From the NCBI RefSeq assembly GCF_029867415.1, contig NW_026705306.1:434001-498000 (forward strand): a DNA stretch of 64,000 nucleotides, written 5' to 3'. The notes under the pieces are model-generated. The model was not told the DNA's origin. It was given only the letters and a program-made list of their open reading frames with translations, and did no database searches. The translations under genes were made by a program, and so were the position numbers. The stretch's first letter is position 1; each line of letters opens with the position of its first letter. This DNA comes from Vicia villosa (lineage: Eukaryota; Streptophyta; Magnoliopsida; Fabales; Fabaceae). This document shows, one piece after another, positions 10,301-63,497 of this stretch.

Positions 10301-11400
10301 AATACTATATCAGAATTGCATAAAGTTAATCAAAATCCAACAATCTGAGAAGGTGGAATATTCAATTTTCATCAGAAACGATCCATAAACAAAAAGAAAA
10401 GTCAAACTGAATTACTCACAGAGAAGATCACATAAAGATAAAATTTTGATTGTAAAAGAGAGACGTAGCTTGAAACCCAAGTCGCAAAAAGTTCCGATAA
10501 ATTTCGATATATGAACGTATCTGATGAGAGGTAGGTGGATTTTTCTGTGCTGTAAAAGCAAAAGTGTTGTGTTTAGACAAAAAGAGAAAAATTGAGAAAG
10601 AGGGGAATAGGGAAATGAGAGAGAAAGAGAAAAAAAAAGATTGAAGAGGAAGAAGACAAAAGGGGATTGAAGGAAGAAATGTGTCAGAAGTGAGAAGGGT
10701 TTGTTGTGTTTAGATCAGAGTGAGAGTACAGAGTACAGAGATTTGGTGACACTATTGGAAAACAGAAACATCCTCCCCTAGGTAAGTAGTACAACTCATT
10801 CTCAAAAACAAATTTCTAATAGGGTTTTTATATTAAAAGAATACAATGAATATTATACAAAATAGAAAATAAAAATATAGTAAGGGTTGTAAAAGAATAC
10901 AATAAACATTATACAAAATAGAAAATAAAAATATAGTAAAGTATAAAAAAAATAAAAATATAATAAATATAAGGAAAAATGATATTTATTAATTATTTAT
11001 GTGTTTCTCATTAACATAAATATAAAATAGAATAATATTTTGAAAATAATACATATAATATTAAACTCAGTACAATGATTCTTAGGTGAAAGTCTTTAGA
11101 CCCTGTTAACACTGGTATAACTTATAGTTTGAATCCAACATAATCGTATAACTCATTACCCGTATTTTTAGTAAACAATCGCCACTCTTTAGAAATGTTA
11201 CTTACAAGATTGACCAATAAATCTTAGGACATAATTGTGCGTAAATTTTTAGAAAAATGTGCTTGATTGTTGGTGTAAAAGTTTTGTTTAATTAAGAAAA
11301 AAGTTGTAAAGAAAACGAGGAATTTCGACTGAGTCAAAATTCTTATAAAGCGTAGTATAAATAAAAAAGTGAAATGCCGGAAAAGACAAGGGAAAATAAA
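10301..11400. other. upstream region of O-fucosyltransferase gene
   Basis: This region precedes the gene on the minus strand. 10390-10760 is purine-rich (GA runs on the plus strand, CT runs on the coding strand), as in many plant 5' UTRs. 10800-11400 is AT-rich with a short tandem repeat of about 70 bp (10840-10950, AATACAATRAAYATTATACA core). No other gene is recognised. Confidence 0.4.
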
Positions 11401-15920: not shown

Positions 15921-17981
15921 CTAGTTACATTGATCCTCCGACGAAAGAAGGCTTTCCTTGTAAAGACCACCAATATTATAATTTGTCTTTCCACCAGTAA
16001 TACCAACCTCCTCAATAATTTGGGTGCTCAAATCAACATAGGCGATTTCATGATCTTTTTTTCTAATGAAAAGATGTCCCATCTTCCCAAATCCAAGTGG
16101 TGGCCATTGGATGGAAGGTGAGGGGCCATAAGTATATAGTTTGATCCATGATTCACTCACACCGAGTTCACCCAGAATAGATATGTGAAAAACAACATCG
16201 TCGTGATGATTGGATAGTAAAGCAATAGATCCATTTAACACTGTCAAGCATAGAAGATCAGCGTATGGAGCATAAGGTTGTTCCCCGACGGGTGTTGTAA
16301 AGAACACCTCACGACTCAAGTCAAATGACAAGACGGTCATAGCCCTTCGATGGTTGATACATTCCGAAACCAACCAATGACACGCTCCATCCAGATAAAC
16401 TTCGTGACCAGAAAATGCCCTAGAATAAAAATAACCCCAATGAGACAGATCATTGTCCATGTCGATCATTCTCCAAGAATTACTTTTTAAACTATATATC
16501 TCAAAAAAACTTGTTGTAAGCCGAGAAGAGCGAGCGGAAACAAATGATACATACTGAACGACCTTAAAGTCATGTCTAAGTTGGTCATAACCAAACCCGT
16601 GAAAAATAGGTTCGAGACTGAGGGTGTCGAAACTAGGGTGTTTTGGTGTAAGTTCAGTGGGGCTAGAAGGAATGCCCATGAATTCGTCGGTAAGGGGATT
16701 CCATAATACATATTGGGGCGTCTTCATAGCTAGATAATGTTGGCCGAGACAAAAAAAGCCGTTAACACTTGTGGAGCCGAGAATACAAGTATATTTGCCA
16801 GACCGTTGAAGTGGAGATGGCAAATTTAGTTTGAGTCTATTTTCGACCAAATGAAATTCAGAGTGGATAAAACCATGATCAAGCCGATGACTTGTGAGAA
16901 TAAATGAATGATAATCATCGTAGGAACCATGACGAGATATGAAATGTTCTCTGTACATTGTCATGAAATCAGTGTTTTCAAATAAAACGGACCATGATTT
17001 GCGTACGCATCCAAAGCGCTTCAATGACTTTATGGGGAGTTTTGAAAGAATAGAGAAAGCAAATTTATCGGGAATAGAGTTTCTGCTAACCTTTGATTTG
17101 GAGGACGGAGGAATATAGTTTTTGCTGACCTTTGCCACAGACTTTGATTCAGAGGACTCGGAACCAAAGCTACCAAAGATAAACTTTGATTCAGGTGATT
17201 TTGATTCAGAGGACGGGGAACCAAAGCTACCAAAGATGAACTTTGATTCAGATGATTTTGATTCAGAGGACCCGGAACCAAAGCTTAACTTTCTTAACTT
17301 TGATTCAGATGATTTTGATTCAGAGGACCCGGAACCAAAGCTTGACTTTGAGCTACGAAAGCTTAAAGTTGATTCAGATGATTTGGATTCAGAGGACTGG
17401 GAACCAAAGCTTAACTTTGAGTTACGAAAGCTTAACTTTGATTCAGATGATTTGAATTCAGAGCTACGAAAGTTTAACTTTGATTTAGATGATTTGGTTG
17501 TAGAGCTACGAAAGTTTAACTTTGATTCAGAGGACTGGGAACCAAAGCTACCAAAGCATAACTTTGATTCAGATGATTTCGATTCAGAGGACTCGGAATC
17601 AAAGCTACCAAAGCTGAACTTTGATTCAGATGAATTTGATTCGGATGAATTTGATTCAGATGAATTGTATAGTTGTATATAGTTTATAAGCAACGGACCA
17701 GGGTGGGAGACGGTGGGATCCATGTAGAACGATAGTGGATTCTTCTTTCTGGTATCCTTTTCTTCATTTACCACAAATACATCCATCTTTGATTCAGAGG
17801 TCGGATCAGGAGCAGGGTGGTAGACGTGGGTGGTTGTGTAGAACGATAGTGGGATAGAATTTTTGCTGACCTTACGAATCGGACCAGGGTGGTTGACGGC
17901 GGAATCCATGTAGAATGATATTGGAATATATCTTCTGCTAACCTTCTGATCATCGTGGGACACGGTGGCGGAATCCATCAT
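15921..17981 (-). CDS. F-box protein with Ser-rich repetitive N-terminus
   Basis: The single exon encodes 686 residues. Residues ~1-85 hold three copies of a short motif (IPISFYMDSAVNHPGP and two variants). Residues ~95-290 are low-complexity repeats of SESKSSESKLSFGS type, about 20-23 residues each. An F-box follows at ~298-345 (IPDKFAFSILSKLPIKSLKR, then FGCVRKSWSVLFE). The C-terminal part resembles the F-box-associated (FBA_1) beta-propeller-like domain (YVLWNPLTDEF, FHGFGYD, DFKVVQYV, WRMIDMDND, GACHWLV, VLSFDLSREVF). F-box proteins of this class are substrate receptors of SCF ubiquitin ligases; the target is unknown. Usual family length is ~370-420 residues, so the first ~290 residues are an addition. 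Both tandem ATGs at the start are plausible. Confidence 0.85.
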   Translation of the reverse strand: MMDSATVSHDDQKVSRRYIPISFYMDSAVNHPGPIRKVSKNSIPLSFYTTTHVYHPAPDPTSESKMDVFVVNEEKDTRKKNPLSFYMDPTVSHPGPLLINYIQLYNSSESNSSESNSSESKFSFGSFDSESSESKSSESKLCFGSFGSQSSESKLNFRSSTTKSSKSKLNFRSSEFKSSESKLSFRNSKLSFGSQSSESKSSESTLSFRSSKSSFGSGSSESKSSESKLRKLSFGSGSSESKSSESKFIFGSFGSPSSESKSPESKFIFGSFGSESSESKSVAKVSKNYIPPSSKSKVSRNSIPDKFAFSILSKLPIKSLKRFGCVRKSWSVLFENTDFMTMYREHFISRHGSYDDYHSFILTSHRLDHGFIHSEFHLVENRLKLNLPSPLQRSGKYTCILGSTSVNGFFCLGQHYLAMKTPQYVLWNPLTDEFMGIPSSPTELTPKHPSFDTLSLEPIFHGFGYDQLRHDFKVVQYVSFVSARSSRLTTSFFEIYSLKSNSWRMIDMDNDLSHWGYFYSRAFSGHEVYLDGACHWLVSECINHRRAMTVLSFDLSREVFFTTPVGEQPYAPYADLLCLTVLNGSIALLSNHHDDVVFHISILGELGVSESWIKLYTYGPSPSIQWPPLGFGKMGHLFIRKKDHEIAYVDLSTQIIEEVGITGGKTNYNIGGLYKESLLSSEDQCN

Positions 17982-18093
17982 ATCTTCTTCTGCCGGTGGT
18001 GATGACTACTGCCTCTGCTTTATTTTCTCTAGGTTAGGATTGGGGGCGCCTAAACTTATTTGTTTTTCTTACCCACCACCGTCCATTCTTATC

Positions 18094-31571: not shown

Positions 31572-33134
31572 ATGGACACTCCCATTGATACTGTCAAGGA
31601 AGCAAATAGAAATACGCATACTTATAGTTTCTTCCGAGATCCGTTGACCGCCTTAGAGGGTTTGAGTTCATTGATGACCGCTTTCTGCTTGAAGAGTTTC
31701 ACGGATAATTATGGGAATATTTTGACTTTGTTGAAAACCGTGGTTGAGACGCCTGCTTTGTAAACTTTGATGCAATTCTATGATCCTGAAATGAGGTGTT
31801 TTACGTTCCAGGATTACCAGTTGGCTCCGACATTGGAAGAGTACTCTATCATTCTTAATCTCAAGGTAAAAGGTGAAGTGCCATTCATCGACGTTCCTAA
31901 AGAAGTGAATTTCAAGTTGATCGCTGCTGATCTTTATTTAAGCATAAAAGAAGTATCTGATAATTGGAAGTCGAATGGAGGTGTCTCGGGGTTCTCTTTG
32001 AAGTTTTTGGTGAAAAAAGCTAAAGAGGAATTTGAGAAAAAGAATTGGAATGCGTACAATGCATTGCTCGCTGTGGCTATTTACGGGATTGTGATGTTCC
32101 CAAATGTTCCCAATTTTGTAGACTCGGCCGCGATACACATCTTCATGAGAAAGAATCCTATTCCTACTTTGCTGGCCGATACTTACTATGCTGTTCATTC
32201 CCGATATGAGAAACGTGGTGGTTCTATCACTTGTTGCCTTCAATTGTTGTTCATCTGGTTCCTCTCTTTGTTGCCCAGCAAAGGACCTTTTATGAAGACA
32301 AGGGAAACACTTAAGTGGACCCATAGGATTATGTCACTTACCTCTTATGACATCCAGTGGCCAAAGTATCGAATTAACGTTTCTGAAGTGATTGTTGGTT
32401 GTGGTAAGTTTGATAATGTTCCTTTGGTTGGCACTAGAGGTTGCATCAATTACAACCCCGTGGTATCTTTGCGTCAGTTGGGGTATACGTTGAAAGACAA
32501 GCCGGCAAATCACTTGATAGCGCAGACAGTCTATTTTGAGAAGGGGTCGGATCCAGAAAAGTTGAAAGAGATAATTGTGGCTTGGAAGAAGATCCGTAAG
32601 CATAATGGAGCCCATTTAGGGAAGAAGGAATCACTTGCTTTGACACCGTATGTTGAATGGATTGTAAAACGGGTCGGGAACTTGTTGCTGCCATATGATA
32701 GGGTTGCACCACTTCAAAAGCAACCTCCTTTGATTCTATCTGAATTTGTGCCAACAGAACTTTACAAGGATGCTTTGGTTACCAACTACAGGTTGCACGA
32801 AAGGGAACAGGAGACCAACTTGAAATTCTTTGAAGAAAGAGATGCGAAGATGAGGTTGATGCACCAGCTCAAGCAAGTCGAAGGTGCAAGCTCAAGTCAG
32901 GCAAGTGCCCAGAGGCGTCCTTATGAGTTGCTAAAGGAAGATTTGCATCGCAAACAACATGAGTGTCTACAGTTACAAAGATCAGAGAGTAGCCTCAAGA
33001 GGCAGAAGCGGGATTCAGACAAACAGCTAGCGGAAGAGAAGGCCAAATCTGCTCGACTTGAAGAGGAATTAACAAGACTCCGAGCCCAACGGAGAGGAGA
33101 TGGAGGAGCCCATTCTATTACCAGGCGATCCTAG
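31572..33134 (+). pseudogene. Ogre ORF1 protein (one internal stop)
   Basis: ORF1 is the extra gene that Ogre/Tat elements carry before gag; its function is unknown. The frame runs from ATG 31572 and is interrupted by a TAA at 31761-31763. It continues in the same frame for a further ~455 codons, so a one-base nonsense change is the simplest explanation. The main part matches the plant-specific domain found in Ogre ORF1 proteins (often annotated DUF7745), recognised by MRCFTFQDYQLAPTLEEY at the start. The last ~110 residues (RLHEREQETNLKFFEERD to the end) are highly charged, with heptad spacing typical of a coiled coil. Host proteins with similar domains exist, but position between LTR and gag makes the retroelement assignment secure. 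Confidence 0.85.
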
Positions 33135-33523
33135 TGTTGTTGTGGAGCGGATCTGTTTGATCCATGATGTCGATCTGCTGTTTATTTTGATATTTGTCGC
33201 CCATGTCCAGGATTGTTGGATGGGGTCGCATTATGGATGTTCTGGATTTCTTTTGTATGCCTTAAGAGCACTTTGTGACACAGTTATGTGCCATGTTTGT
33301 ATGAACTCAAACTCTCAGTTATGTTTGAATGAAATACGCTCAGTTTGATGAATTATTCTCGTGTGTGGATTGCTGTTCAAATATATTCGGTATCAGGGTT
33401 GCTATGTCCTATCTGAAAGTGGGATGAACTCTTGGATACCTGAAAGTTGACAAACATCTCATGCATATCATTCATATATCATACATGTCATATATTTGCA
33501 GGTTTTTGCAGGGCTTATATCTT

Positions 33524-36500
33524 ATGTCTCACTGTTTTGTTACCAGAAGGAGTTCTAAGACGGCTAATCACCCGTATCCGACTAGGAGCAATCAGAGAAG
33601 ACAGATGGAACAGATTCAGGAACAGATGGCTGAGATGAGAGCTCAATTGACAGAGCAGATGAATGCGCAGATGGCGCAGTTTATGGAAGCATTGACTAAT
33701 GTGACCAAGGGGCAGGATGACTTGTGAGTTCTCGTCGAGAATTCCAGAAGGGTTGAGAATGGAGGACATTCGAGGCTGTTTGACGATGTGTCTGGCAGGA
33801 TTGACAATCACCATGACCCAAATGAGTTTGATCGCTTGGGAGGGCACTATAATCCTTTCAATCAGAATCATGGGTTTCCACCTCCACCTCCGTCTCGTCT
33901 GTTGGGAAGGAGAGATAATCAGAACCGTGATAATCTGGATTTCAATGTTGAAAACTTTGATCAGGTATCGAGGCATAGTGCTGATGGTGCACCCGAGGAA
34001 GCCGAGAGGTATCGTCTGATTGAAGAACGTCTCAGAGCTGTTGAAGGCAAAGGGGTGTTGGGCATGGATATCAATGACTTGGGGTTGGTTCCTGGTGTGA
34101 GGATTCCCCCGAAATTCAAAGTGCCATCTTTTGACAAATACAATGGGGTAACCTGTCCTATGACTCATGTCAAAGCATACTATCGCAAGATGTCGGTATA
34201 CTCTGAGGATGAGGGTTTTCTGATGCACTTCTTCCAGGATAGCTTGGCTGGAGCTTCCTTGGAGTGGTATGTTCAACTCGAGCGCACTCATATTCATTCT
34301 TGGAGAGATCTTGTGGAGGCTTTCATTAAGCACTATCAGTATAATGTTGACATGGCGCCTAATCGAACTCAGTTGCAGAGTTTGGTTCAAGGATCTAAAG
34401 AATCTTTCAAGGAGTACGCTCAGAAATGGCGTGAGTTAGCTGCAAGAGTTCAACCGCCTATGACTGAACGAGAGATGATTGACATGTTCATCAGTACATT
34501 GTCTGGACACTATTACCTGGCCTGCAGTGCTTCAGCCAACTTTTCTGAAATGGTGAGATATGGCGAACGTGTTGAGATGGGTCTAAAGATGGGGAAAATT
34601 CAGTTGGGAGCTTCTTCTAATACTCCTAGTGGTAAGAAACAAGCTGAGGGTTATGCCCGAAGGAAGGAAGGAAATGCGGATGCCATATATGGAAGAAGGG
34701 GTTCAGGGAGAAACAACTCACAGGTTAATGCTGTCATGATCCCAGTACCGCAACAACAACATCAGCAAGGACATCATTCCAATAATGATCGCTATCCTCC
34801 CAGGACCCGGCCTCACAGAAAGATTGATCCGATTCCTATGACCTATGCTCAAGTACTACAACATTTGCTCCAGATTGAGAAGATTACTTTGAGAGATGCT
34901 CCGAATGCTCCGGACACACAATCTCCGAATTACAATGCAAACGCACGGTGTGCCTTCCACTCAGGTGCCGCTGGTCATGATACAGAGAGGTGCATTGCAC
35001 TGAAGAACAAAGTCCAGGACTTGTTGGATCAAAAGATAATTCAGTTCACTCCTACACCCAATATTGTCAATAATCCGATGCCTGCTCACGGAGGTTCGGG
35101 TGTGAATGCCATTGAGAGTGAAGAGATAAGTGTTGTATCCGACGTGGGCCGTTTGACTTTCCCTCTTGTGTCTGTGAAGCAACATCTGGTCAATAGTGGC
35201 ATCTTCCCGGGCTGTGGTATTGATTGTGAAAATTGAAAAAGTCGACCCGAAGGTTGTGCTGATTTGAAAGCTATGGTACAAAAGCTAATTGATGAGGGTC
35301 CTCTTCAGTTCTATCGAAGGTTGAGAGGTGCGAAGAGTAATGATGGTGAAGTGTCTGTGATCTCAATTCCTTATGAGTCTGTTGTTCCGATATGTATCCA
35401 AGTGCCTATTCAGATACCTGTCAGTATCCCCTATGAGGAACAACCAGCGGCGTTGATGATTACTGTGCCTGGGCCTATTCCATATGAGAGTGAGAAGGCC
35501 ATCCCTTGGCATTATGGTTCAGATGTATATTACTATGGCACGAAGGAAAAAAGCGAGCCATCTAAAGAGAAGCTTGTTGAGGCCTCAGTTGCAAACACTG
35601 ATAATTTTGCCGGTACTGGTAGAATTACTCGCAGTGGTAGGGTGTTCTCCCCTCAGCTTGTTCAAAGTAATGCTGATGCTTTCGCTAAGGCCAAAGGAAA
35701 ACAAGTAGTGACTGATGTCCAGAATTCTCCAGTTCAGAATGGGGCACCTGACAATGCCGTGTCTTCCAAGGATGTGGAAGAACTGTTGAGGATCATCAAG
35801 AAGTCTGATTACAAGGTTGTTGAGCAGTTGGGTCAGACCCAATCAAAGATCTCCATCTTGCAACTGTTGATGTGTTCAGAAGGTCATAGAGATGCTCTCT
35901 TGAGAATTCTGAATGGTGCTTACGTCCCACATGAAATATCTGTGAATCAGCTAGAGGCGGTAGCCAATAATATCTCCGCCGGGAACGGTTTGGGATTTAC
36001 AGATTGTGATCTTCCGCCAGAAGGGAGGAACCATAACAAGGCTTTGCATATTTCGATTGAGTGTAAGGGGACGGCCTTGTCCCGTGTTTTGGTTGATACT
36101 AGGTCTTCTTTGAATGTGCTGCCCAAATCAGCTCTCATGCGAATTGACTATGCTGGTGTTGTGTTGAGGCCAAGTGAGTTGGTAGTGCGCGCCTTTGACG
36201 GTTCAAGGAGGTCTGTGTTCGGGGAGGTAGATCTACCAATCCAAGTGGGTCCTCAGATCTTTACTATAACCTTTTACGTGATGGATATTCAACCCGCTTA
36301 TTGTTGTTTGTTGGGACGACCGTGGATTCACAAGGCTGGCGCTGTGACATCCACTCTTCATCAGAAGTTGAGGTATCCGGTTGACAGTAAGGTGGTGACG
36401 GTCTGTGGTGAAGAGGATTACATCGCGAGTCACTTGTCCTCTTTCCGATATGTAGAGATCGAAGGTGAAATACATGAGACGCCATTTCAAGCATTTGAAG

Positions 36501-36882
36501 CTGTGAATGCTGTGAGAACTCCTCTTTATGAGATAACGAAGCCAGAAACGGTTATGTCCTCTTTGAAAGATGCTCAGGTTGTTGTTGAGACTGGAAGAGT
36601 GGAAGGTTGGGGGCAAGTAATTGACGTGCGTCCCAAATTTGACAAGAATGGTCTTGGTTTCAATCCCGGAAAGCAGAATGCACCGCCCAAATCTGGTATT
36701 CTTAGTCCGGTCAAGTTCGTGAGTGGGGGTGTCATTCAAGACGGCCAGGTTAATGCCATTGTCAATGGTGAAGAGGTGGATAGTGACTGTGACTTTGATA
36801 GCTGGATCCGTCCAAGTATTCTTGGGGAGATACCTCGCAACTGGACAATTGAAGATGTCATCCAAATTACACAAGCTCAGGA
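33524..36882 (+). pseudogene. Ogre gag-protease (two in-frame stops)
   Basis: One frame from ATG 33524 encodes gag and then the aspartic protease, cut by TGA at 33725-33727 and TGA at 35234-35236. Gag features are a Gln-rich coiled-coil start (QIQEQMAEMRAQLTEQ), the retrotransposon gag domain (FKVPSFDKYNG, FFQDSLAGASLEWY) at about 34110-34480, and a CAFHxGAxGHDxxxC zinc-knuckle-like region near 34950-34990. The protease region lies at about 36040-36360 (ILLGRPWI-like CCLLGRPWIHKAGAV). Its active-site triplet reads Asp-Thr-Arg (36095-36103) instead of the catalytic Asp-Thr-Gly. Stops plus this substitution should make the product inactive. The frame runs into the splice donor at 36883. Confidence 0.9.
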
Positions 36883-37134
36883 GTAAATCCCTTGTTTTTA
36901 CTTTTCTTATCATGCAATAATTCCTACACTCTGCCCAAGGCGTAGTGAATCATTTGTAGGGCCATGCAGTTCGCATTTTCAAAGTTAATCATAAAATAAG
37001 GACGTTTTTGCATTCAAATGTTTTGCTCTTTGTCTTTCTTTTTAACCTTTTTCCTTTAAATGGCAATGTTTTTGCACACACTTGCACATAGCTTAATAAA
37101 AAATAAAACTGAAATAAAAACATCAATCATGCAG
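36883..37134 (+). other. Ogre intron between protease and reverse transcriptase
   Basis: A donor GA|GTAAAT at 36883 and acceptor TGCAG at 37130-37134 bound 252 bases that contain stops. Joining them keeps the gag-protease frame (CAG GA + A TGT) and enters the pol frame, which is open from 37135. A partially spliced intron at this place is a documented hallmark of Ogre. Confidence 0.8.
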
Positions 37135-40100
37135 ATGTTCCACTACCACGGATTCCATTGGTAACAGTTCCGCTATTGCTTATTATGATTTTGACAATCC
37201 GATCTACCAAGCCGAGGAGGAAGCTTATGAAGATTATGACCTTCCCGATGAGTTGGCCAGATTATTGAAACAAGAAAAGAAAGCGATTCAGCCGCATCAG
37301 GAGGCAATTGAGATGGTAAATGTTGGCACTAAAGAGCAGGTACGAGAAGTCAAGATAGGGGATGTGCTTGAGAATAGTGTGAAGCAGAGGCTTATTGATA
37401 TGTTGAAAGAGTATGCGGATATCTTTGCTTGGTCCTATGAGGATATGCCAGGTCTTGATACGAATATTGTGGTACACCGTCTACCTCTCAAAGAAGATAG
37501 TCCTCCTGTCAAGCAGAAGCTTCGAAGGACTCGCCCAGATATGTCTGAGAAGATTAAGAAAGAGGTTGAGAAACAGTTTGACGCCGGTTTTCTGCAAGTT
37601 GTGAATTACCCGCCGTGGGTCGCTAATATTGTTCCTGTACCTAAGAAGGACGGAAAGGTTAGTATGTGTGTTGATTACAGAGATTTGAATAGGGCGAGTC
37701 CGAAGGATGATTTTCCTCTCCCTCACATTGACATGTTGGTGGATAATACTGCTCCTTTCAAAGTGTTTTCCTTCATGGATGGCTTCTCTGGGTACAATCA
37801 GATCAAGATGGCACCAGAAGACATGGAGAAAACAACGTTTATCACACCGTGGGGAACTTTCTGCTATAAAGTTATGCCTTTTGGGTTGAAAAACGCAGGG
37901 GCAACGTATCAGCGCGCCATGGTGACTCTTTTTCATGACATGATTCACAAAGAGATTGAAGTGTATGTTGATGACATGATTGCAAAATCTCATACTGAAG
38001 AGGAGCACCTGGTTCATTTGCAGAAGTTGTTTGAAAGGCTTCGGGAATTCAGACTGAGGTTGAACCCAAACAAATGCACTTTCGGAGTGCGTTCCAGAAA
38101 ATTTTTGGGCTTTGTTGTTAGCGGAAAAGGTATTGAGGTCGATCCTGCAAAAATAAAAGCTATACAAGAGATGCCTGAGCCGAGAACAGAAAAAGAGGTT
38201 CGTGGTTTCTTAGGGAGGTTGAACTACATTGCTAGATTCATCTCTCATCTTACGGCCACTTGTGAACCAATATTCAAGTTGCTAAGAAAAGATCAGACGA
38301 CCAAGTGGAATAATGATTGTCAAAAAGCGTTTGAAAAAGTGAAAGAGTATCTGCAGGAACCTCCGATACTAATGCCTCCAGTTCCAGGAAGGCCTTTGAT
38401 TATGTACCTCGCAGTTCTTGAAAATTCAATGGGATGTGTTCTGGGTCAACATGACGAGTCTGGCCGAAAAGAGCATGCAATATACTACCTTAGCAAAAAG
38501 TTTACCGACTGTGAATCCCGATACTCGCTGCTCGAGAAAACTTGCTGTGCTTTGGTGTGGGCTGCTCGTCGGCTGAGGCAGTATATGTTGGTTCACACCA
38601 CCTTGTTGATTTCCAAAATGGATCCTATCAAGTATGTTTTTGAGAAGCCCGCTCTTTCCGGAAGAGTAGCCAGGTGGCAAATGATCTTGACCGAATATGA
38701 TATCCAGTATACTACCCAGAAAGCCATCAAAAGTAGTGTGTTGGCAGATTATCTTGCGCATCAACCTGTCGAAGATTATGAACCGATGAAGTTTGAATTC
38801 CCCGATGAAGATGTTCTGTACATCAGAGATTGTAACATTCCCGGACCAGGGGAAGGACCCGAACCAGGATCGCAATGGACGCTCGTGTTCGATGGTGCCT
38901 CTAATGCACTCGGGAATGGTGTTGGAGCTGTAATTACTTCTCCATCAGGTTTTCATATTCCGTTTACGGCCAGAATCTGTTTTGATTGCACTAATAACAT
39001 GGCTGAGTATGAAGCCTGCATTTATGGTATCGAAGCTGCGATAGATTTGCGAATCAAGTACTTGAAAGTTTATGGGGATTCCAATCTTGTCATTAGCCAG
39101 ATCAATGGAGATTGGGAAACTCGCCATCAGAATCTGATTCCATACAGGGAGCATGTGATGAGACTCATTCCGTATTTTGATGAGATCACATTCGAGCATA
39201 TTTCTAGAGAAGAGAACAATCTTGTTGATGCTCTCGCTACTTTGGCTTCCATGTTCAAAGTGAAATGGGCCAATGAAGCGCCTAACATCACCATCAATAG
39301 GTTGGATGAGCCGGCATTTTGCTTTGAGGCTGATGTTGAACTGGATGGTAATCCCTGGTATCATGATATCAAAAAGTTCCTCGAAACTCAAGAATATCCT
39401 CCCGAAGCGTCGGTGACTGATAAGAAGTTTCTGAGAAGGTTTGCAGCTAAGTTTTACCTCAACGGTGGGGTGTTGTACAAGAGGCATCATGACGGTGTGT
39501 TGCTCCGATGTGTTGTGAAGGAAGAAGCTTCGAAAATCATAGAGGAAATGCACGAAGGCGAGTTTGGTACCCATTCTAGTGGGCATACAATGGCTAAGAA
39601 GATCTTAAGGGCTGGTTACTATTGGTCCACTATGGAAACTGATTGTCATAACCATGTCAGAATTTGTCACAAGTGCCAGATTTATGCTGACAAAGTGCAC
39701 GTGCCGCCTGCGCCTTTGAATGTCTTGACTTCTCCGTGGCCTTTCGCAATGTGGGGCATTGACATGATTGGAGAAATTAAGCCTACCGCTTCCAATGGAC
39801 ATCGCTTCATTTTGGTTGCCATCGATTACTTCACCAAGTGGGTTGAAGCCGCATCTTATGCGAATGTTACCAAACAAGTGATTACTCGCTTTATCAAACA
39901 CAATATAATATGTCGTTATGGGATTCCTGAGAAGATCATTACTGATAATGGATCAAATCTCAATAACAAGTTGATGAAGGAGCTTTGTGAGTCCTTCAAG
40001 ATTAAGCATCACAATTCTTCTTCGTATCATCCGAAGATGAATGGCGCTGTCGAAGCGGCCAACAAGAACATTAAGAAGATTGTGCAGAAGATGGTAGTGA

Positions 40101-40603
40101 CTTACCGAGATTGGCACGAGATGTTGCCTTTTGCTTTGCATGGTTATCGCACCTCCGTGCGTACATCGACTGGGGCAACTCCTTTCTCACTTGTTTATGG
40201 TATGGAAGCGGTACTGCCTGTTGAAGTTGAGATTCCTTCCCTGAGGATTATGAAAGACGTCGAGCTTGACGAGTCAGAATGGGTACAAAATCGGATGGAT
40301 CAGTTGAACCTCATTGATGAGAAGCGTTTAGCAGCCATTGGTCATGGTCAGGTGTACCAAAAGAAGATGAGGAAAGCTTTTGATAAGCGGGTGCGACCCC
40401 AAAGCTACAAACCAGGTGATCTGGTACTCAAAAGAATCATTCTCCCTCAAGGCGATCCTCGAGGCAAGTGGACTCCGACGTATGAAGGCCCCTTTGTTGT
40501 GCAGAAAGTGTTCTCTGGCGGTGCCATGATGCTTGCAACGATGGATGGCGAGAACTTTCCGCACCCTGTGAACGCAGATATAGTCAAAAAATACTTCGCA
40601 TAG
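37135..40603 (+). CDS. Ogre pol: reverse transcriptase, RNase H, integrase
   Basis: Open for about 1155 codons from the splice acceptor to TAG at 40601-40603. Reverse transcriptase spans ~37600-38160, with VDYRDLNRASPKDDFPLP and the YVDDMIAKS catalytic motif near 37960. A thumb/connection and archaic RNase H follow (38270-38780). A second RNase H-like domain at ~38870-39250 has VFDGASN, NNMAEYEA, YGDSN and DALATLA, as in Tat-group elements. Integrase has an HHCC finger (HTMAKK, CHKCQ) at ~39580-39680 and a DDE core with D in WGIDMIG, D in TDNGSN and E in NGAVEAANK. It would copy and integrate Ogre RNA via cytoplasmic particles. The frame is intact although the upstream protease is not, so it would need splicing or help in trans. 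Confidence 0.93.
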
Positions 40604-49918: not shown

Positions 49919-49923
49919 CCTTA

Positions 49924-50207
49924 TGATAGGAAGAAATTCCTACCAAGACTATAGAACTAGGGTTTTAACAATAAAGAAGAAAGACATAAAAATGAGCTAA
50001 GAAAAATAGAGATAAAATTAACTTTTGATTTCTTTTTTGATATCCTTAATTGTGTCAAAGACATTACATATATAGATTCCATAGTGGATGTTCTATTAAA
50101 GGCCCAAATACTCAAAAGTCCAATACAATATTAATAATATAAGTTCTATTATTACCCCCTATCACTAATAATACTAATAATATAAATTCTATAATACCCT
50201 TCTATCA
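49924..50207 (-). repeat. 3' LTR of gag-fusion retroelement
   Basis: 284 bp, preceded in element sense by AAGTGAACCCCGCGGCAA, a weak polypurine tract. TTGAGGACAAGGTT upstream of it resembles the pre-LTR region of legume gypsy elements. Confidence 0.9.
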
Positions 50208-50507
50208 TTGCCGCGGGGTTCACTTGAACCTTGTCCTCAAGGTTCTAAAATAAACTCCCAAAAATAGAAATTGGGATATGGGTATATTCTTCATTAGTCA
50301 ACATCTTAGAGTTTGCACAATAATAATTCAAATTATAGTTCTTGTCAACTTGGTTCATATGAAGAAGCCTCATATATTTAGGATCATCCACGTCACTAAT
50401 AAGGAAAACAACACCAAGAGTATCACAAGGGGAACATGTTGTGAGTCACCTTGTTCCAGCATAATTAAAGCTTTTGTAAATGCCTGTCGAAGCAATTTCA
50501 TTAGCAG
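50208..50507 (-). other. 3' untranslated region of chimeric retroelement
   Basis: 300 bases between the fusion stop codon and the 3' LTR without a recognised domain. The first part may be further captured exon sequence, now frame-disrupted. Confidence 0.4.
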
Positions 50508-52151
50508 CTACAATACTAGTTTCTCGAGACGGCTAAACATGACATCATTAAAGCTCAATTTTTCTTCTTTATTTGCTTGGCATAACCGGTTGAAAATAGA
50601 TTTATCTGATTGCATTGATTCATGGAAAATCTGGGCATCAATTGCAGCAGTTAGAAGATTGCTTGTTGCAGTTATAACATGGATATCTACTGTTAGTTGA
50701 AGATTAAATTCATCCATGAGAATCACTTGGCTATAACCAGATGCACCTCCTTTGGTTCCAAAAGTAGGTCCTTGTGATGGTTGACAAACACATGTGACCA
50801 CCTTTTTATCAAGAAAAACACCTAAAGCTTGACAGAGACCAACAATAGTAGTATATTTTCCTTCACCAAGAGGAGTTGGAGTAATACCTCTAACCACAAC
50901 AAGTTCCTTTATAATGGATCTGTTAACGGCTTTCGAAGACACTTTTGGTGGAACAGTTACCTTCTCAAATTGCTCATTGTCCAAGCTCTCTCGCGAACAA
51001 TGCGACATGGCGTCAGAATCAATTGAACTAGCAGTATAGTATCCATCACAATCCTCAAGCTTAGTTGCCATAGGATCCTTCCAATCCTCAGCCTTGAGCA
51101 CAGGTAAATACAACTCATCCGCATAACAATCTAAATCCAATCCCGACAAATTAAATTCATGTAAGTCAAGCAGATTTGTAAATCCATAAAGAGGAAAGAA
51201 CTCAGCAATTACGTTATGTTTCTCGGCCTCAATCTCGAACTGATATAATAAATTGTTAACTGTTTTCCGAATAAAAGGTCTATACGCCATGAACTTCCCA
51301 TAAACCTTAAGCAGAATTGTCTTCAAACAGTCTCTTTCTCTTGGATTCTCAGAATCAAACAGTTCAAGCAACTCCGAAATGAACGAATGATCAATATACT
51401 TTTTGGCTACCTTAGCATCACTCAAACACTTCTCAATATGATCCTTCTTGTTCTTCCTCAAAAATTCCAGAACATAATGGTTCACCATTCTGTTATCCAT
51501 CGGTTCAAGAGTATTCAAAGTTTCTTCATCCATCGAAACAACGACTTGAGTTGAAGGATCGGGAAATGAGGAAGTTATGATCTCAGGAGGCGACTGAGAG
51601 GGCGAGGAGGAAACTGCCATAACATAAGGTGATTGATAAGATGGCGAAGGATTTGCAGTCACCGGAAATGTTGTAACAGCGTTAGAAGTAGGAACTGAAA
51701 GATCAGGCAAAAGTGGCACAATTGCATAAGAGGAATAATTTGTATCATCTGCAGCAGAACGGATAGTTAGAGAAGGCGGACGAGATCCTTGTTTTCGAGG
51801 CGAAGAACAAGTATGGTCAGTCAACAAAGTTTTGATCTCTGGATTTTCTTTTGGATTCCTGCACAACCAGTGTTGCCAATTCAATACTTGATTAACGAGT
51901 TGTCGCAAGTGCGTTGACGAGAACGAAGGAAACACATGCATAACTTTGAAACTGGGATTAACTATAATCAATTTCGTTAGCTCAAACATCAATATAGCTC
52001 TAGATGAATTGGTATCGCCATACGCTGCTAACTGCTTATTCTCCCTTGCGGAAATCATGGTTGTCGCTGTGAGTAGAGATTTAGGTGGTTTCAACAATTG
52101 CGGCATCGGTGGCGTTGAGGCTGGTGATTGCAACCAGTGGAGAAACAAACT
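50508..52151 (-). CDS. captured PP2A B'-like/formate-tetrahydrofolate ligase-like fusion, in frame with gag
   Basis: 546 open codons (from 52148) directly behind and in phase with the gag TAG. The first ~240 residues are Ser/Pro-rich and unrecognised. Residues ~241-318 (51425-51195) match the HEAT-like core of plant PP2A regulatory subunit B' (B56): [20 protein letters not shown], then [23 protein letters not shown]. Residues ~319-414 are unassigned ([20 protein letters not shown]). Residues ~415-546 (50904-50508) match the N-terminal nucleotide-binding part of 10-formyl-THF synthetase: [56 protein letters not shown]. Its P-loop Ser after Lys is Tyr and the Gly-rich loop is two residues short, so ligase activity is not expected. 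The capture model is inferred. Confidence 0.75.
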
Positions 52152-53336
52152 CTACTGGAAATGATTTGAGAGAGTGTCCAGTTCTGAAATTGGTAGTAGT
52201 TGCTTGTTCTTCAAAATGGAATTAATATGTTTTGAGTGAAAAAGAATACTGGCATTGTAAACCCTCAACAGTGGTAAATCAAGTGGTTTACGTGGAATTG
52301 CAAAATTTCCGTCACGGTGAAAATATCTGTTTTTGAAGGTAACCTCGACCTTGTTCAGTGATGAAGAATTGAAATCTAGTATATGGGTATTGGTAACAAA
52401 GCTTGGTTCTGGTGAATGAGATAAGATTAAGTCTGGTGGCTTCAAGGGCGGCGGCGATATTGAAGTTTTATCAGAAATCATTATCGGCGGTGGCTCCTTT
52501 GGTGACTCTGTTTTTTTCTGACCGAGATCCGACACCTCCGAGAACAATAGTGGTTGGATTTCATACATATTAGGTTGCTCCGGTGGCTTTGGTGGTGGAG
52601 AAATATTTTCGTTGGAATTGTAGGTCAAGTTGGATGCATTTGTGTTTCTCGTTGTTTTGGTATCGATGAGTAATACTGAGTTAGCGTTGAGCGTTGAATA
52701 TGTTGTGATTGAGTTTGTGGATACATATATATCACCTTTATCAGCAATAATTTCATTATTCTGGAATAATTTTGCAGACGCCGCATAAGAAGTCACCAAC
52801 ATGTGTTGATGCTTCTGACTAGGCAAAAGGGTTATAACCATTTCAGGAACAACTTCATTGGCTCTTTCCATAACAAAATCTTCATGAAAAGAAGTTTCTT
52901 CAATGAGCTTTCTTGATTCCGGATCTGATGATTCTTCTAAGTCTTCCCCAACAATACAACTTTCCTCTATTATGGGTTTAGTTGGTTCCAGATCTGACTT
53001 CTCATGTTTCTCTTCAAACAAAATTTCTCGTGTAACATGTTGCTCCATCAAGTATGAGGACTCGACAATCGGTTCCTCTTTTTCATTCGAAATTGGTAAA
53101 ATTTCTCGCCATTCAGGTTTAAAGCGCCATAACAAAGCAGTTGTAAATGTGTCCCAATTATATCTCGGATGAATACGACACCACCCTATCCACCATGTGA
53201 AAGCAGAGCCTCTCAATGCTCCAACAGCTTTTAAAATCTTCAATGATTTGGGTGTTTCATGCTCTTTGAAAAATTTCTCCAAACATAGAATCCACCAATA
53301 GGCATCTTCACTTGCATCAAAAATTGGAATAGTCAT
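52152..53336 (-). CDS. gag-like protein of chimeric retroelement
   Basis: 394 codons from ATG 53336, about 44 bases inside the 5' end of the element, to TAG at 52154-52152. Residues ~1-75 match the retrotransposon gag domain of plant Ty3-gypsy elements (IPIFDASEDAYWWILCLEKF, GSAFTWWIGW, NWDTFTTALLWRFKPEW). The middle is Glu/Ser-rich with EEPIVESSYLMEQH-type stretches. Residues ~255-325 are Pro-rich (PPPKPPEQP, PPPLKPPD). There is no zinc knuckle. The frame continues after the single TAG into the next entry without a shift. A gag of this kind should assemble particles around the element's RNA; whether this one does is unknown. Confidence 0.8.
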   Translation of the reverse strand: MTIPIFDASEDAYWWILCLEKFFKEHETPKSLKILKAVGALRGSAFTWWIGWCRIHPRYNWDTFTTALLWRFKPEWREILPISNEKEEPIVESSYLMEQHVTREILFEEKHEKSDLEPTKPIIEESCIVGEDLEESSDPESRKLIEETSFHEDFVMERANEVVPEMVITLLPSQKHQHMLVTSYAASAKLFQNNEIIADKGDIYVSTNSITTYSTLNANSVLLIDTKTTRNTNASNLTYNSNENISPPPKPPEQPNMYEIQPLLFSEVSDLGQKKTESPKEPPPIMISDKTSISPPPLKPPDLILSHSPEPSFVTNTHILDFNSSSLNKVEVTFKNRYFHRDGNFAIPRKPLDLPLLRVYNASILFHSKHINSILKNKQLLPISELDTLSNHFQ

Positions 53337-53395
53337 GATTCTCAAATATAGATTTAGAACATTTGAGGCAAGAGATCGAAAATGAAAGCACCAAT

Positions 53396-53679
53396 TGATA
53401 GGAAGAAATTCCTACCAAGACTATAGAACTAGGGTTTTAACAATAAAGAAGAAAGACATAAAAATGAGCTAAGAAAAATAGAGATAAAATTAACTTTTGA
53501 TTTCTTTTTTGATATCCTTAATTGTGTCAAAGACATTACATATATAGATTCCATAGTGGATGTTCTATTAAAGGCCCAAATACTCAAAAGTCCAATACAA
53601 TACTAATAATATAAGTTATATTATTACCCCCTATCACTAACAATACTAATAATATAAATTCTATAATACCCTTCTATCA
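53396..53679 (-). repeat. 5' LTR of gag-fusion retroelement
   Basis: 284 bp; upstream LTR in the element's own orientation. It differs from the other LTR at three positions. Followed by the primer-site candidate. Confidence 0.9.
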
Positions 53680-53684
53680 CCTTA

Positions 53685-54736
53685 CAAAATGATCCGAAAT
53701 CTAAATCGAAATTAAAATTATATAAAAGAGGACTTACAACTCTCAAAATCAATTTCACAAATTACAATAAAAACTACTTGCTGTTGCTGCCTAAATTGAT
53801 GGGTATTTATAACGTAACGTAACTACTAAGGTAGCGAGCGACAATATATCCGTAATTCATAATCTTTATATTATTTTTATTACACTAGTAACAATATTTA
53901 TCTATCTGAGTTGGTAGTCTGAGCTGTAGTTATGCAAAAATATCATGGGAGTTGATAGTTGTATAGAAATATTACATGTATTGATAAATTAAATTATAAT
54001 TATTTTTTTCAGAAAACTAGATTGCTTCTGTTGATGATGATGTGAGTTCTAGTTTTGTTTTTGTTTTTGTTTTTGTTATTTAGTGATGATGTGAGTTCTA
54101 GTTTTGTGATGCATTTGCGTAGTTTATGTCAATGGTGATGAAGGTTAAAGGTTATTATAGTAATGGTGAAATTATAGTAAGGCAATTTCATGGGTTTATG
54201 GATGGTTATTTGGTTGTGGGTTTATTATTATTCTGTTAAGTGTACTTTTATAGTTACTTTGAAGTCTATGGTTTCTACTTCTAAAATCATAGTAGTTTGT
54301 GCTACAGATTCCATATAGTTCCTTCACTTTTATGATATTTGTATTTAACTGCATCGTGCGTGTGTGTTTAATTTTACAGTTACTTTTAAGTCTCTGGTTT
54401 CTACTTGTACAACGCCGATTCAAACCTACCCATCTCCCACATCAAGTCTAACTCGGGTTACTATCCCTTTCTTCTTGCTTATAGTTTGTTATTTTCTGTT
54501 TATAGTTTATTGTTTATGGTTCTATTTAATATCAATTTAGTGTCTCTCAACCAATTTTTTGGTTTGTGGACTTATATTACCTTGAAATAAGGTAATGTCT
54601 TCTTTAAGAAATCGGGTATTCTGATTAGGTATTCTGATTAGGTATTCTATTATGATGATAGCTATTTATTATCTTGACAGAATTCCTTAGTACCTGATAG
54701 AGAAACCAAGAAGCATTTGTTTAGCTTAATTAAGAC
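53685..54736 (+). other. CACTA interior upstream of transposase
   Basis: AT-rich. Two short repeats of GATGATGTGAGTTCTAGTTT at 54036 and 54085, and two related blocks (GTTACTTTxAAGTCTxTGGTTT near 54252 and 54379). Probably leader/promoter of the transposase gene. No protein recognised. Confidence 0.45.
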
Positions 54737-57079
54737 ATGGATAAGACATGGATGAATTCAAACCGATTGTCGAAACAGTACGAGAAAGGGGTATGGGAAT
54801 TCGTTGAGTTTGCAGTTAAGCACTCCGAAGACCCGCTTCGAATGCCGTGTCCTTGCTTGGGTTGCTGTTATGGGGGTAAGGTTGACGGGGAACAGTTGGG
54901 ATCCCATTTACTACGGTTTGGAATTGATAGAAGTTATACATGTTGGACAATGCATGGTGAGAAAAGTAACGGGAATGCTGAGTCGAGGTGTAATAGGAAG
55001 TATGCTTCAAACAACGATTGCACAGACACATACGATTGCGATCGAGTCGAAGAGATTGCAGAAGCGCTTGAAGAAGATCTTGCGGATTGTCCCAAAATGT
55101 TTGAGAGGTTGGTAAGCGATGCAGAGAAACCGTTGTATGATGGTTGTTCAAAATTCATAAGATTGTCTGCGGTGTTAAAGTTGTACAACTTAAAGGCGGA
55201 CAATGGATGGTCGGATAAAAGTTTCACAGAGTTATTAGCCCTTATGAAAGATATGCTACCAGAGGATAATGTTCTTCCCAATCGAACGTATGAAGCCAAA
55301 AAGATGTTGTCCTCTATTGGCATGAGCTATGATAAGATACATGCATATCCAAACGATTGCGTTTTGTTTCGAAACGAGTATGCAGCGTTGAATGAGTGTC
55401 CTAAATGTGGTGCCCCTCGATATAAGAAAAAGTTGTCTCCTGCTAAAGTCTTATGGTATTTTCCTATAATTCCGAGATTTAGACGCATGTATCGTAGTGA
55501 GACCGATTCAAGACACTTGACTTGGCATGCAGATGAAAGAATTATTGATGGAAAGTTGCGACATCCGGCAGACTCACCACAATGGATGAAAGTTGATACT
55601 GATTATCCTGAATTTGGAAAAGAAGCAAGAAACCTTCGGTTGTCATTGTCTACTGATGGAATGAACCCGCATGGTATTCAAAGTATCTCGCATAGCACAT
55701 GGCCTGTGATTCTTATGATCTATAACCTACCTCTGTGGCTATGTATGAAGCGTAAGTACATGATGTTATCTATGCTAAATTCTGGGCCTAAACAACCAGG
55801 GAATGACATAGACGTATACTTGGCACCGTTAATCGAAGATTTAAAGTTTTTGTGGGACAACGGTGTGGAGGTTTACGATGGGTATAGGAAGGAAAGTTTC
55901 AACTTGAGGGCGATGTTGTTTGGAACAATTAATGATTTTCCAGCATACAGAAATCTATCCGGGTACAGCAATAAAGGTCAAAAGGCGTGTCCCGTTTGTG
56001 AAGATGAAACCGATACGACACGATTGGAGCTTTGTCAGAAGAATGTCTTTCTCGACCATCGTAGATTCTTAAATTCTAATCATCACTACCGTGGGTGGAT
56101 AAAAGCATTCAACGGAAAGGCCGAACATGGTGCAGCCCCGCCTTTTTTGTCAGGTGATCAAATTTTTGAAAAGGTGAAAGATGTGAGCACTCAGTTTGGC
56201 AAGCCTTTTGCACATTCACTTGTCAAGGGTGGGTGGAAGAAGAAGTCTATTTTTTTTGAACTTCCATATTGGAAGTCATTGTACGTAAGACATTTCCTGG
56301 ATGTTATGCATATTGAAAAAAATGTATTTGACAGCGTCATAGGTACGTTACTCAATATACAAGGAAAGTCTAAGGATGGCCTTAACATAAGGAAAGACAT
56401 GGTAAACATGGGGATGAGAACTGAATTGGGACCCGTGACGAAAGGAAGACGAACATATCTGCCACCTGCTGTTTACACTCTATCTAGAAAGGAGAAGAAA
56501 ACATTGTGTAAGTTCCTCAGTGAAGTTAAAGTCCCAGAAGGATACTCTTCAAATATTAGAAGACTTGTGTCCATGAAAGACCTCAAGTTAAAGAGTTTGA
56601 AGACGCATGATTGTCATGTTATAATGGAACATTTTTTACCAATAGGTATACGTTCTATTCTGCCAGAAAAAGTAAGAAGCGCAATAACTAAGCTGTGTTT
56701 CTTCTTCAGGTCAATTTGCAGTAAGGTGGTCGATCCCGCGATCTTACCAACATTGCAAAAAGAGATAGTTGTTACTTTATGTGATCTTGAAATGTATTTT
56801 CCTCCCTCGTTTTTTGACATAATGGTTCATCTAGTCGTTCATCTTGTGAAAGAGACACAATTGTGCGGACCAGCTTATATGAGATGGATGTACCCTGCTG
56901 AACGTTATATGAAAATATTAAAAGGGTACGTGAAAAACAGAAGTCGATCGGAGGGTTGTATTGCCGAACGATATGTTGTTGAAGAAGCGGTTGAGTTTTG
57001 TACTGAATATCTGTCAAATGTTCAATCAATTGGACTCCCCAAATCTCATATTGTCGAAAAAAAGAAGGAAAAAGGCTAA
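54737..57079 (+). CDS. CACTA TNP2-type transposase
   Basis: 780 residues from ATG 54737. Residues 1-75 match the transposase-associated zinc-finger-like domain (MDKTWMNSNR, CPCLGCCYGGK). About 225-470 is the Transposase_21 catalytic region of En/Spm TNPD proteins (WHADERIIDGKLRHPADSPQ, NLRLSLSTDGMNPHGIQS, FLWDNGVEVYDGY, FNLRAMLFGTINDFPAY, GQKACPVCEDET). About 640-760 matches DUF4218 (VHLVVHLVKETQLCGPAYMR, WMYPAERYMKILKGYVKNRS). It would bind and cut the CACTA ends. The reading frame ends in an A-rich tract near 57055-57075. The expected continuation, DUF4216, is in another frame immediately downstream, so a one-base shift has truncated the protein. Confidence 0.93.
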   Translation: MDKTWMNSNRLSKQYEKGVWEFVEFAVKHSEDPLRMPCPCLGCCYGGKVDGEQLGSHLLRFGIDRSYTCWTMHGEKSNGNAESRCNRKYASNNDCTDTYDCDRVEEIAEALEEDLADCPKMFERLVSDAEKPLYDGCSKFIRLSAVLKLYNLKADNGWSDKSFTELLALMKDMLPEDNVLPNRTYEAKKMLSSIGMSYDKIHAYPNDCVLFRNEYAALNECPKCGAPRYKKKLSPAKVLWYFPIIPRFRRMYRSETDSRHLTWHADERIIDGKLRHPADSPQWMKVDTDYPEFGKEARNLRLSLSTDGMNPHGIQSISHSTWPVILMIYNLPLWLCMKRKYMMLSMLNSGPKQPGNDIDVYLAPLIEDLKFLWDNGVEVYDGYRKESFNLRAMLFGTINDFPAYRNLSGYSNKGQKACPVCEDETDTTRLELCQKNVFLDHRRFLNSNHHYRGWIKAFNGKAEHGAAPPFLSGDQIFEKVKDVSTQFGKPFAHSLVKGGWKKKSIFFELPYWKSLYVRHFLDVMHIEKNVFDSVIGTLLNIQGKSKDGLNIRKDMVNMGMRTELGPVTKGRRTYLPPAVYTLSRKEKKTLCKFLSEVKVPEGYSSNIRRLVSMKDLKLKSLKTHDCHVIMEHFLPIGIRSILPEKVRSAITKLCFFFRSICSKVVDPAILPTLQKEIVVTLCDLEMYFPPSFFDIMVHLVVHLVKETQLCGPAYMRWMYPAERYMKILKGYVKNRSRSEGCIAERYVVEEAVEFCTEYLSNVQSIGLPKSHIVEKKKEKG

Positions 57080-62761: not shown

Positions 62762-63497
62762 TAACACGAAATGTGATTAGTGCCATAGCTTATAGCTTAG
62801 AGACTTGAATCAGACATATTTGTAACCCATCTCATAGGGCCATTCAATTCTCCTTGTATATTATATATGCAAAAGAAGGCCATTTTACATCACTTCCACA
62901 CATGGAACTCACACCTAATTTCATCATCTTTTGTGTTCTTTCAAAAACTATAAGGCTTGAAAAAGTAGAAAAATTGTTCCCAACAAACACATTAGCTCTC
63001 AAACACACTTCATAATCAATTGCATATTGAACTAAATAAGAATATTTCCCAAAAAATTTATCAACACCAAGTTTCTTCTTCTCATAAGGTAAAAAACCCT
63101 CTTTCCAACCTTCAAGTATTGAAGAGTTTTGAAGAAGTTTATCAGCCACCGCAAGATAAAGAACAATTGGAGGACTCTTATTAAGACTTTCAATGTTCCC
63201 GACTCTTTCGATTATTTCGTTCTTGCTACTACATATTTGATTTGTGTTCAATCTTTGCTCCAATTTCTTGCAATGAAACATCCAATCAATTTCTACCCTC
63301 ATGTGAACCGTAACATATCGATCATTTTTTCCAACTTCTCTAATCATAGACACAACTCTATCAGCTTCTTGAGAAATCTCATCAACCAAAACCAAGCACT
63401 CGAAAACGTTAGCGTAATCCTTAACCGGCCATGATCATGCCACAAGAAAGGGGTTTTTCCAACAATCTTAACCACCTCATACTCATCAAATGAACTA
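62762..63497 (-). pseudogene. truncated O-fucosyltransferase pseudogene (copy B)
   Basis: Direct paralog of 9053-9785, that is, the C-terminal ~245 codons of the intact gene. The HMRVEIDW motif and the VFVGNNFSTFSS motif are present. A 2-base AT insertion near 62868 shifts the frame before the C-terminus. A one-base deletion at about 63430 (GGCCATGATC versus GGCCAATGATC) shifts it again. All sequence for the membrane anchor and donor-binding start is missing, because similarity stops at 63497. Not functional. Confidence 0.9.

Follow-up and report, generated by a model that had tools for sequence, protein, structure and literature searches.

Fused pieces of several host genes in a probable family of non-autonomous long terminal repeat retrotransposons of Vicia villosa and related legumes

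The maize element Bs1 is a long terminal repeat (LTR) retrotransposon that fuses gag to captured pieces of host genes. Three unrelated host genes are represented in it as a hybrid frame (PMC13317346). TR-GAG elements are non-autonomous and contain one GAG frame (562 aa in one case); one such element has been shown to transpose in Arabidopsis ddm1 (PMC8704663). LTR-captured genes and retroduplicated NLRs of rice, sorghum, maize and pepper consist of spliced host mRNA situated between LTRs (PMC3726574; PMC5664825), and around 72% of the retroduplicated pepper NLRs reside in elements devoid of both gag and pol (PMC5664825). The survey of maize B73 described 425 LTR elements with gene fragments, none of which, under its survey conditions, carried more than one nuclear gene (PMC2774510). 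Pack-MULEs and Helitrons form families whose members transport and amplify fragments of numerous host genes (PMC13317346). Here we describe a 3,756-bp LTR element located at 49924-53679 (minus strand) of a 64,000-nucleotide stretch of Vicia villosa DNA (hereafter the window; C383:434001-498000 of the 2.03 Gb genome, C383 being a short contig and not chromosome-sized). Its cargo derives from at least four host genes: TOPLESS, HSP70, the PP2A subunit B56 (B') and formate-tetrahydrofolate ligase (FTHFS).

We consider it probable (roughly 0.85) that this element is a member of a non-autonomous LTR retrotransposon family, represented in legumes of the vetch, grass-pea and clover types, which captures and reassorts pieces of spliced mRNAs. 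As in Bs1, processed pieces of several unrelated nuclear genes lie inside an LTR element (introns are absent for TOPLESS and FTHFS); unlike Bs1, compared here by its description, other host genes and another plant lineage are involved, and there are many members with many cargo sets and reused pieces. The likeness to TR-GAG comprises the non-autonomous condition, the two LTRs and gag as the only element-derived coding part, whereas the window element has, instead of a single GAG frame, a gag of about 81 residues, behind which come other sequence and the host pieces. The reports on LTR-captured genes treat single genes, in contrast to the fusion and reassortment of several short pieces in vetch. 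Like Pack-MULEs and Helitrons, the family multiplies many host gene pieces, but these are DNA transposons, and the vetch cargo lies between LTRs, in sense orientation and intronless where tested. Gene capture as such is known; what appears to be new is a family-wide, modular, multi-gene habit, in frame in young copies. No description of the vetch family was found in the literature searched (titles and abstract openings, with few subscription journals).

The LTRs of the window element measure 284 bp each (5' LTR, 53396-53679, minus strand, TGATAGAA...TCCTATCA; 3' LTR, 49924-50207, minus strand), have TGATAG...CTATCA ends and differ at three positions. A 5-bp target site duplication (TSD), TAAGG on the minus strand, lies at 53680-53684 on the 5' side and 49919-49923 on the 3' side; two direct LTRs together with a short TSD mark the element as an LTR retrotransposon. 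Both the near-identity of the LTRs and the TSD had been noticed in a first-pass annotation made from the letters alone. Between the LTRs, two minus-strand frames share one phase, 52155-53411 (419 codons) and 50511-52151 (547 codons), divided by a single in-frame TAG (52152-52154) where the sister copy at C4:155242411-155246166 is stop-free. The first frame contains a truncated gag (53094-53336, minus strand; about 81 aa of the N-terminal capsid part, ending ...KPEWREILP, with 150 scored matches in the same genome) and a leader with Pro-rich PPPKPPE-like linkers, parts of which are common to other members (52155-53093, minus strand). The second frame, on the same strand, comprises a TOPLESS/TPR1-like piece made of four joined donor exons (51495-52046), an HSP70 piece of two sub-pieces, DNRMVNH..KKD and ..EKCLSDAK (51411-51494), a B56 piece (51198-51410), a linker without family assignment, parts of which match other loci with long open frames (50902-51197), and an FTHFS piece (50519-50901).

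Pfam recognizes FTHFS (E=4.1e-36), B56 (E=4.3e-27) and the TOPLESS zinc finger (E=2.9e-19) in the second frame, together with a TPR1-like CTLH match under the curated cut-off (E=2.3e-5). The best match of the TOPLESS part to a solved structure is TPR1 (1.6e-29), and the two short HSP70 parts between TOPLESS and B56 match HSC70 in the PDB (E=1.2e-5). The linker and the region at 50255-50512 gave no credible Pfam or PDB match. The first-pass annotation had proposed a second frame in phase with gag and containing B56 and FTHFS stretches, and the Pfam check that it recommended returned both as significant; its count of two host enzymes was too low, since TOPLESS/TPR1 and HSP70 had been missed. What it called “gag-only” is an element with a gag truncated to about 81 residues; gag is the sole element-derived coding part, and no pol was found in the window element. 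The fusion is not a product of chance, because the longest sense frame of 547 codons exceeds the maximum of 151 found in 200 first-order Markov resamplings, and because a second locus holds the same fusion.

The borders with the donor genes reveal the origin of two of the pieces. Two FTHFS paralogues on C2, with five matching blocks each, have an intron of about 1.19 kb inside the captured stretch; in the element this intron is absent and exon 2 is joined directly to exon 3 at the exact border. The closest match found among cellular TOPLESS sequences (C4:131953682 region, 85-91% in exons) contains, within the captured stretch, three introns (118, 82 and 132 bp), every one of which is missing from the element, at GT..AG borders. 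In a related element on chromosome 7, which carries FTHFS residues 44-373, two donor introns are likewise absent. Because the donor introns are lost exactly at four borders (one in FTHFS, three in TOPLESS), as in processed retrogenes, spliced mRNA was the source of these pieces, and DNA-level capture is ruled out for both. The comparison of junctions with donor exon borders, suggested as a check beforehand, thus favors processed transcripts. No poly(A) tail was seen by eye in the element sequence, nor is one expected for internal mRNA pieces.

The whole fusion has transposed to a second site. The copy at C4:155242411-155246166 (L009) is also 3,756 bp long and 99.3% identical to the window element (27 mismatches, no gaps); it has identical LTRs, its own TSD (GTACA), a single 967-codon frame and the Pfam-recognized TOPLESS, B56 and FTHFS pieces, and its flanks, as far as the 10 kb fetched extend, do not match the window. 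It is the different flanks and the separate TSD that demonstrate movement with the cargo, as the first-pass annotation had supposed of a recent event. A third, older copy (L010; C374:113877-121651, 7.8 kb) contains the same three Pfam-recognized pieces at about 94%. From the LTR differences, and with the rate of 1.3e-8 used for pepper (PMC5664825), the window insertion is about 0.4 Myr old; with zero LTR differences, the C4 copy is too young for LTR dating. L011 and L012 are related in the same way: they are 99.8% identical, the LTRs of each are identical, and their TSDs differ (TAATA and TACAA). An assembly artefact, for which the location of the window on the short contig C383 might speak, is ruled out for the fusion by the second and third copies on other contigs; with the introns absent as well, the chance that the locus represents an artefact or a DNA-level capture of genomic gene pieces is negligible.

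Querying the genome with the LTR gave 40 scored matches of 999 candidates, and 20 surrounding regions were fetched. Two LTRs were present in ten of these, which together with the window makes 11 two-LTR copies. These copies, selected for similar LTRs and for having a second one, fall into eight cargo lineages, each with at least one host domain; some cargo matches stay under the curated Pfam cut-off, as when a domain is only partly present. The window element, L009 and L010 (lineage 1) carry TOPLESS, HSP70, B56 and FTHFS; L011 and L012 (lineage 2) carry ACT (E=1.7e-4), WDR62-like WD40 and SLAC1, the ACT and WDR62 model matches being below the cut-off. The other six lineages are represented by one copy each: FBPase in L013 (lineage 3), PPR and JmjC in L014 (lineage 4), aldo-keto reductase, aromatic amino-acid lyase and Ariadne-type pieces in L015 (lineage 5), HSP70 and 5'-nucleotidase in L016 (lineage 6), histone deacetylase in L017 (lineage 7), and thiolase in L024 (lineage 8). 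The count omits a weak match of L015 to a cNMP-binding domain, which is under the cut-off (E=1.8e-4). Cargo queries added three more lineages, namely the chromosome-7 element (L039, lineage 9), with gag plus FTHFS including the start codon and LTRs 93.4% alike; L042, L043 and L046 (lineage 10), with TOPLESS and an amino-acid-kinase piece that looks P5CS-like by eye; and L047 and L048 (lineage 11), with helicase C, the TOPLESS linker, HSP70 and a cationic amino-acid transporter piece. Among near-identical copies, the Pfam scan covered L012 for L011, L048 for L047, and L042 and L046 for L043. Two or more host-gene families occur in seven of the 11 lineages (1, 2, 4, 5, 6, 10 and 11).

Besides the LTRs, the members have in common a presumed primer-binding site and a 3' end. 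The former (ATTGGTGCTTTCATTT; 53380-53395, minus strand) appears as ATTGGTGCT or ACTGGTGCT behind the 5' LTR in all 11 two-LTR copies; no tRNA match to it was found, nor any tRNA gene within the window. The latter, 47 bp adjoining the 3' LTR (50208-50254, minus strand), is the presumed polypurine-tract region, although not purine-rich; all 18 copies compared have 32 to 47 bp of it. A truncated gag was recognized in eight of the 11 two-LTR copies, and the protein matches of the first frame that carry an organism name are all from Vicia, Lathyrus, Trifolium or Medicago. A single fortunate element, capturing several mRNAs once with no family-wide habit, would have its precedent in Bs1 and its three captured genes (PMC13317346); faced with eight two-LTR lineages bearing different genes, and with pieces that recur in other elements, we regard this explanation as very improbable.

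The recurrence of pieces is clearest for FTHFS. With the two cellular genes as reference, the FTHFS pieces of the window lineage and the chromosome-7 element have nine derived sites in common, vs 13 and 12 private ones. Both elements also contain the same 3' region (80%; 50255-50512 in the window, minus strand), found in addition in the C4 copy and L010 and in none else of the 18 copies compared, and have different upstream cargo. Because of these common derived sites and the common 3' region, the two pieces most likely go back to one capture that later acquired different partners. L045, which was not scanned by Pfam and stands outside the count of 11 lineages, is a mosaic: it has a 690-bp stretch (TOPLESS plus the HSP70 start) in common with the window lineage (92.6%) and a 3' part in common with L048 (95% over 1,506 bp). 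The HSP70-B56-linker segment, used as a query, matched 51 places; of the 48 that remain without the three lineage copies, 12 are within frames of 700 codons or more, the longest having 1,040; judging from these matches, the loci would be elements of the family. Since its pieces are common to other members in other combinations, not every capture was made by the window element, which amends the earlier proposal of a transduction of processed transcripts by this element, borne out at the FTHFS and TOPLESS borders.

The frames are most open in the youngest copies. Compared with the maximum from 200 first-order Markov resamplings, the longest sense frame is greater in 10 of the 11 two-LTR copies, by a small margin in L016 (168 vs 166), and smaller in L024 (146 vs 200). 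The copies with identical LTRs (L009, L011, L012 and L046, the last over the 237 bp compared and with the TSD TTCAC) have frames of at least 915 codons. Among seven copies with an LTR divergence above 0.04, pieces are out of frame or separate from gag in five (L013, L014, L016, L017 and L024); L015 (442 codons, three host pieces) and L039 (735 codons) fare better. A census of gag (150 scored of 1,515 candidates) found 43 of the 150 in frames of at least 600 codons (longest 1,123, median 336), with a stop-free gag piece in 40 of the 43, some being near-duplicates in tandem (C762). All host domains found in the elements are in sense frames, and none of ten antisense frames, from among the longer ones, has a host-gene Pfam domain; since the Pfam scans were mostly made on long sense frames, the in-frame pattern partly reflects what was chosen for scanning. 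A copia-type gag in the antisense scan of L014 is probably a nested insertion.

The frequency of these long frames, the listing of relatives in databases as predicted genes, and a cargo-only ratio of nonsynonymous to synonymous substitution rates (dN/dS) of 0.57 between the window and C4 copies (10 nonsynonymous and 5 synonymous changes), with which weak constraint is possible, could be taken as signs of domestication, that is, of a polyprotein with a host function kept open by selection. The same comparison gives 0.79 over the whole frame (17 nonsynonymous, 6 synonymous) and 1.64 for gag plus leader, and C4 vs L010 gives 0.89 overall (TOPLESS 0.63, B56 0.75, FTHFS 0.85, with few changes each), which suggests near-neutrality given the few changes. 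Furthermore, the window copy has a stop and older copies mostly have shorter frames. Domestication is accordingly a remote prospect, and there is probably no selection for a host function that preserves the fusion protein. The openness of the frame looks like a matter of youth rather than of host selection, and its retention may be selected at birth.

The usual anatomy is LTR, primer site, some 80 codons of apparently Ty3/gypsy-type gag, variable cargo, the 47-bp 3' end and LTR. In this reading the cargo consists of host mRNA pieces, all joined in the sense orientation; those of the young copies examined also keep one frame with gag. Element RNAs would be packaged along with one another and with host mRNAs inside particles provided by autonomous Ty3/gypsy elements; template switching by the reverse transcriptase would add mRNA pieces and reassort them among members, and new copies would integrate through a borrowed integrase. 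Template switching among packaged RNAs would account for the sense orientation and the exon borders, and movement in trans by borrowed enzymes is plausible by analogy with TR-GAG in Arabidopsis and with the pepper NLR elements. A stronger version, in which the family acts as a standing exon-shuffling system that takes up spliced mRNA pieces, reassorts modules among co-packaged RNAs, favors in-frame products with the truncated gag and issues fusion frames of 600 to 1,100 codons, is put forward tentatively, as the less probable side of the question.

Reshuffling might also have taken place by DNA-level recombination or gene conversion among integrated copies, the captures themselves still deriving from mRNA. 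The members are dispersed repeats with common 5' and 3' parts, and gag copies on C762:177771-210036 are spaced regularly, some 2.9 kb apart, and frames of equal length recur among them (393, 816 and 829 codons), which points to tandem duplication at the DNA level. Against it, L009, L011, L012 and L046 have identical LTRs and exact TSDs, as if each combination had preceded integration, an argument about its timing and not about the way it arose. We hold this route to be unlikely, though a good deal less so than a single fortunate element or domestication.

Several observations weigh against the reading of one family that captures and reassorts spliced mRNAs. The gag reported by the first-pass annotation is present as about 81 residues at the start, but its match to Pfam Retrotrans_gag (E=0.085) is under the curated cut-off, as are those of L012 (E=0.0055) and P0129 (E=0.0077); the best match among 25 scanned database relatives reaches E=9.5e-5. 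The Ty3/gypsy assignment is tentative, the gag match being weak here and better in some relatives, and no pol having been found in the element that would show the protease, reverse transcriptase, RNase H and integrase (PR-RT-RH-INT) order. A second LTR was not found in the other ten of the 20 regions (L028 having only weak partial matches), nor gag in L016, L017 and L024; lineages 9-11 (L039, L042-L048) came via cargo queries and are biased toward cargo, and a recognized host domain is present in only four of the 25 scanned relatives, of 37 found. The cellular B56 loci found are intron-free across the captured stretch, so B56 is uninformative about splicing, and the donor comparison, with the claim of spliced origin, covers FTHFS and TOPLESS of the window lineage and the chromosome-7 FTHFS. 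An autonomous partner was detected neither by the gag census (150 scored of 1,515) nor by a protein search limited to proteins of up to about 955 aa; nor was a single-frame gag-pol seen, no frame with the family gag exceeding 1,123 codons among those scored. To these are added the cargo dN/dS and the fact that the reshuffling data fit template switching and DNA-level recombination alike. As regards rarity, two or three annotated genes in single LTR elements are mentioned in the pepper report, where they were filtered (PMC5664825).

LTR gene capture has mostly been reported as single genes, and a family with commonly several genes per element, reused pieces and identical-LTR copies would make exon shuffling visible at a young age. 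One could ask in it by which route genes are captured (template switching, orientation, frame), if keeping the frame is favored by selection, and whether the fusions get translated or become genes. It also carries a warning for annotation, as relatives have been entered as predicted genes of Vicia, Lathyrus, Trifolium and Medicago. The gag-leader proteins P0126 and P0128 (Trifolium medium and Medicago truncatula) are named “swarming motility protein ybiA” (P0128 in part), apparently a carried-over misannotation.

The neighborhood of the element, judged here by eye, contains other long frames. About 1 kb from its 5' LTR, at 54734-57079 (plus strand, 781 codons), lies what we take to be a CACTA-type (TNP2-like) transposase. 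A large Ty3/gypsy-like element occupies 31764-40603 (plus strand), with a 1,161-codon pol-like frame in the list of open reading frames (37118-40603), gag/protease-like frames upstream of it and a further long frame at 31764-33134; it is flanked by paired similar frames about 17.5 kb apart (26118-26450/43634-43987, 28217-28570/45754-46107 and 30355-30825/47891-48286), possibly very long LTRs. A fucosyltransferase-like frame at 9053-10309 (minus strand) has a partial second copy at the other end of the window (62844-63434, minus strand), and an F-box-like frame at 15921-18005 (minus strand) includes a long Ser/Glu-rich repeat stretch (SSESKSSES...).

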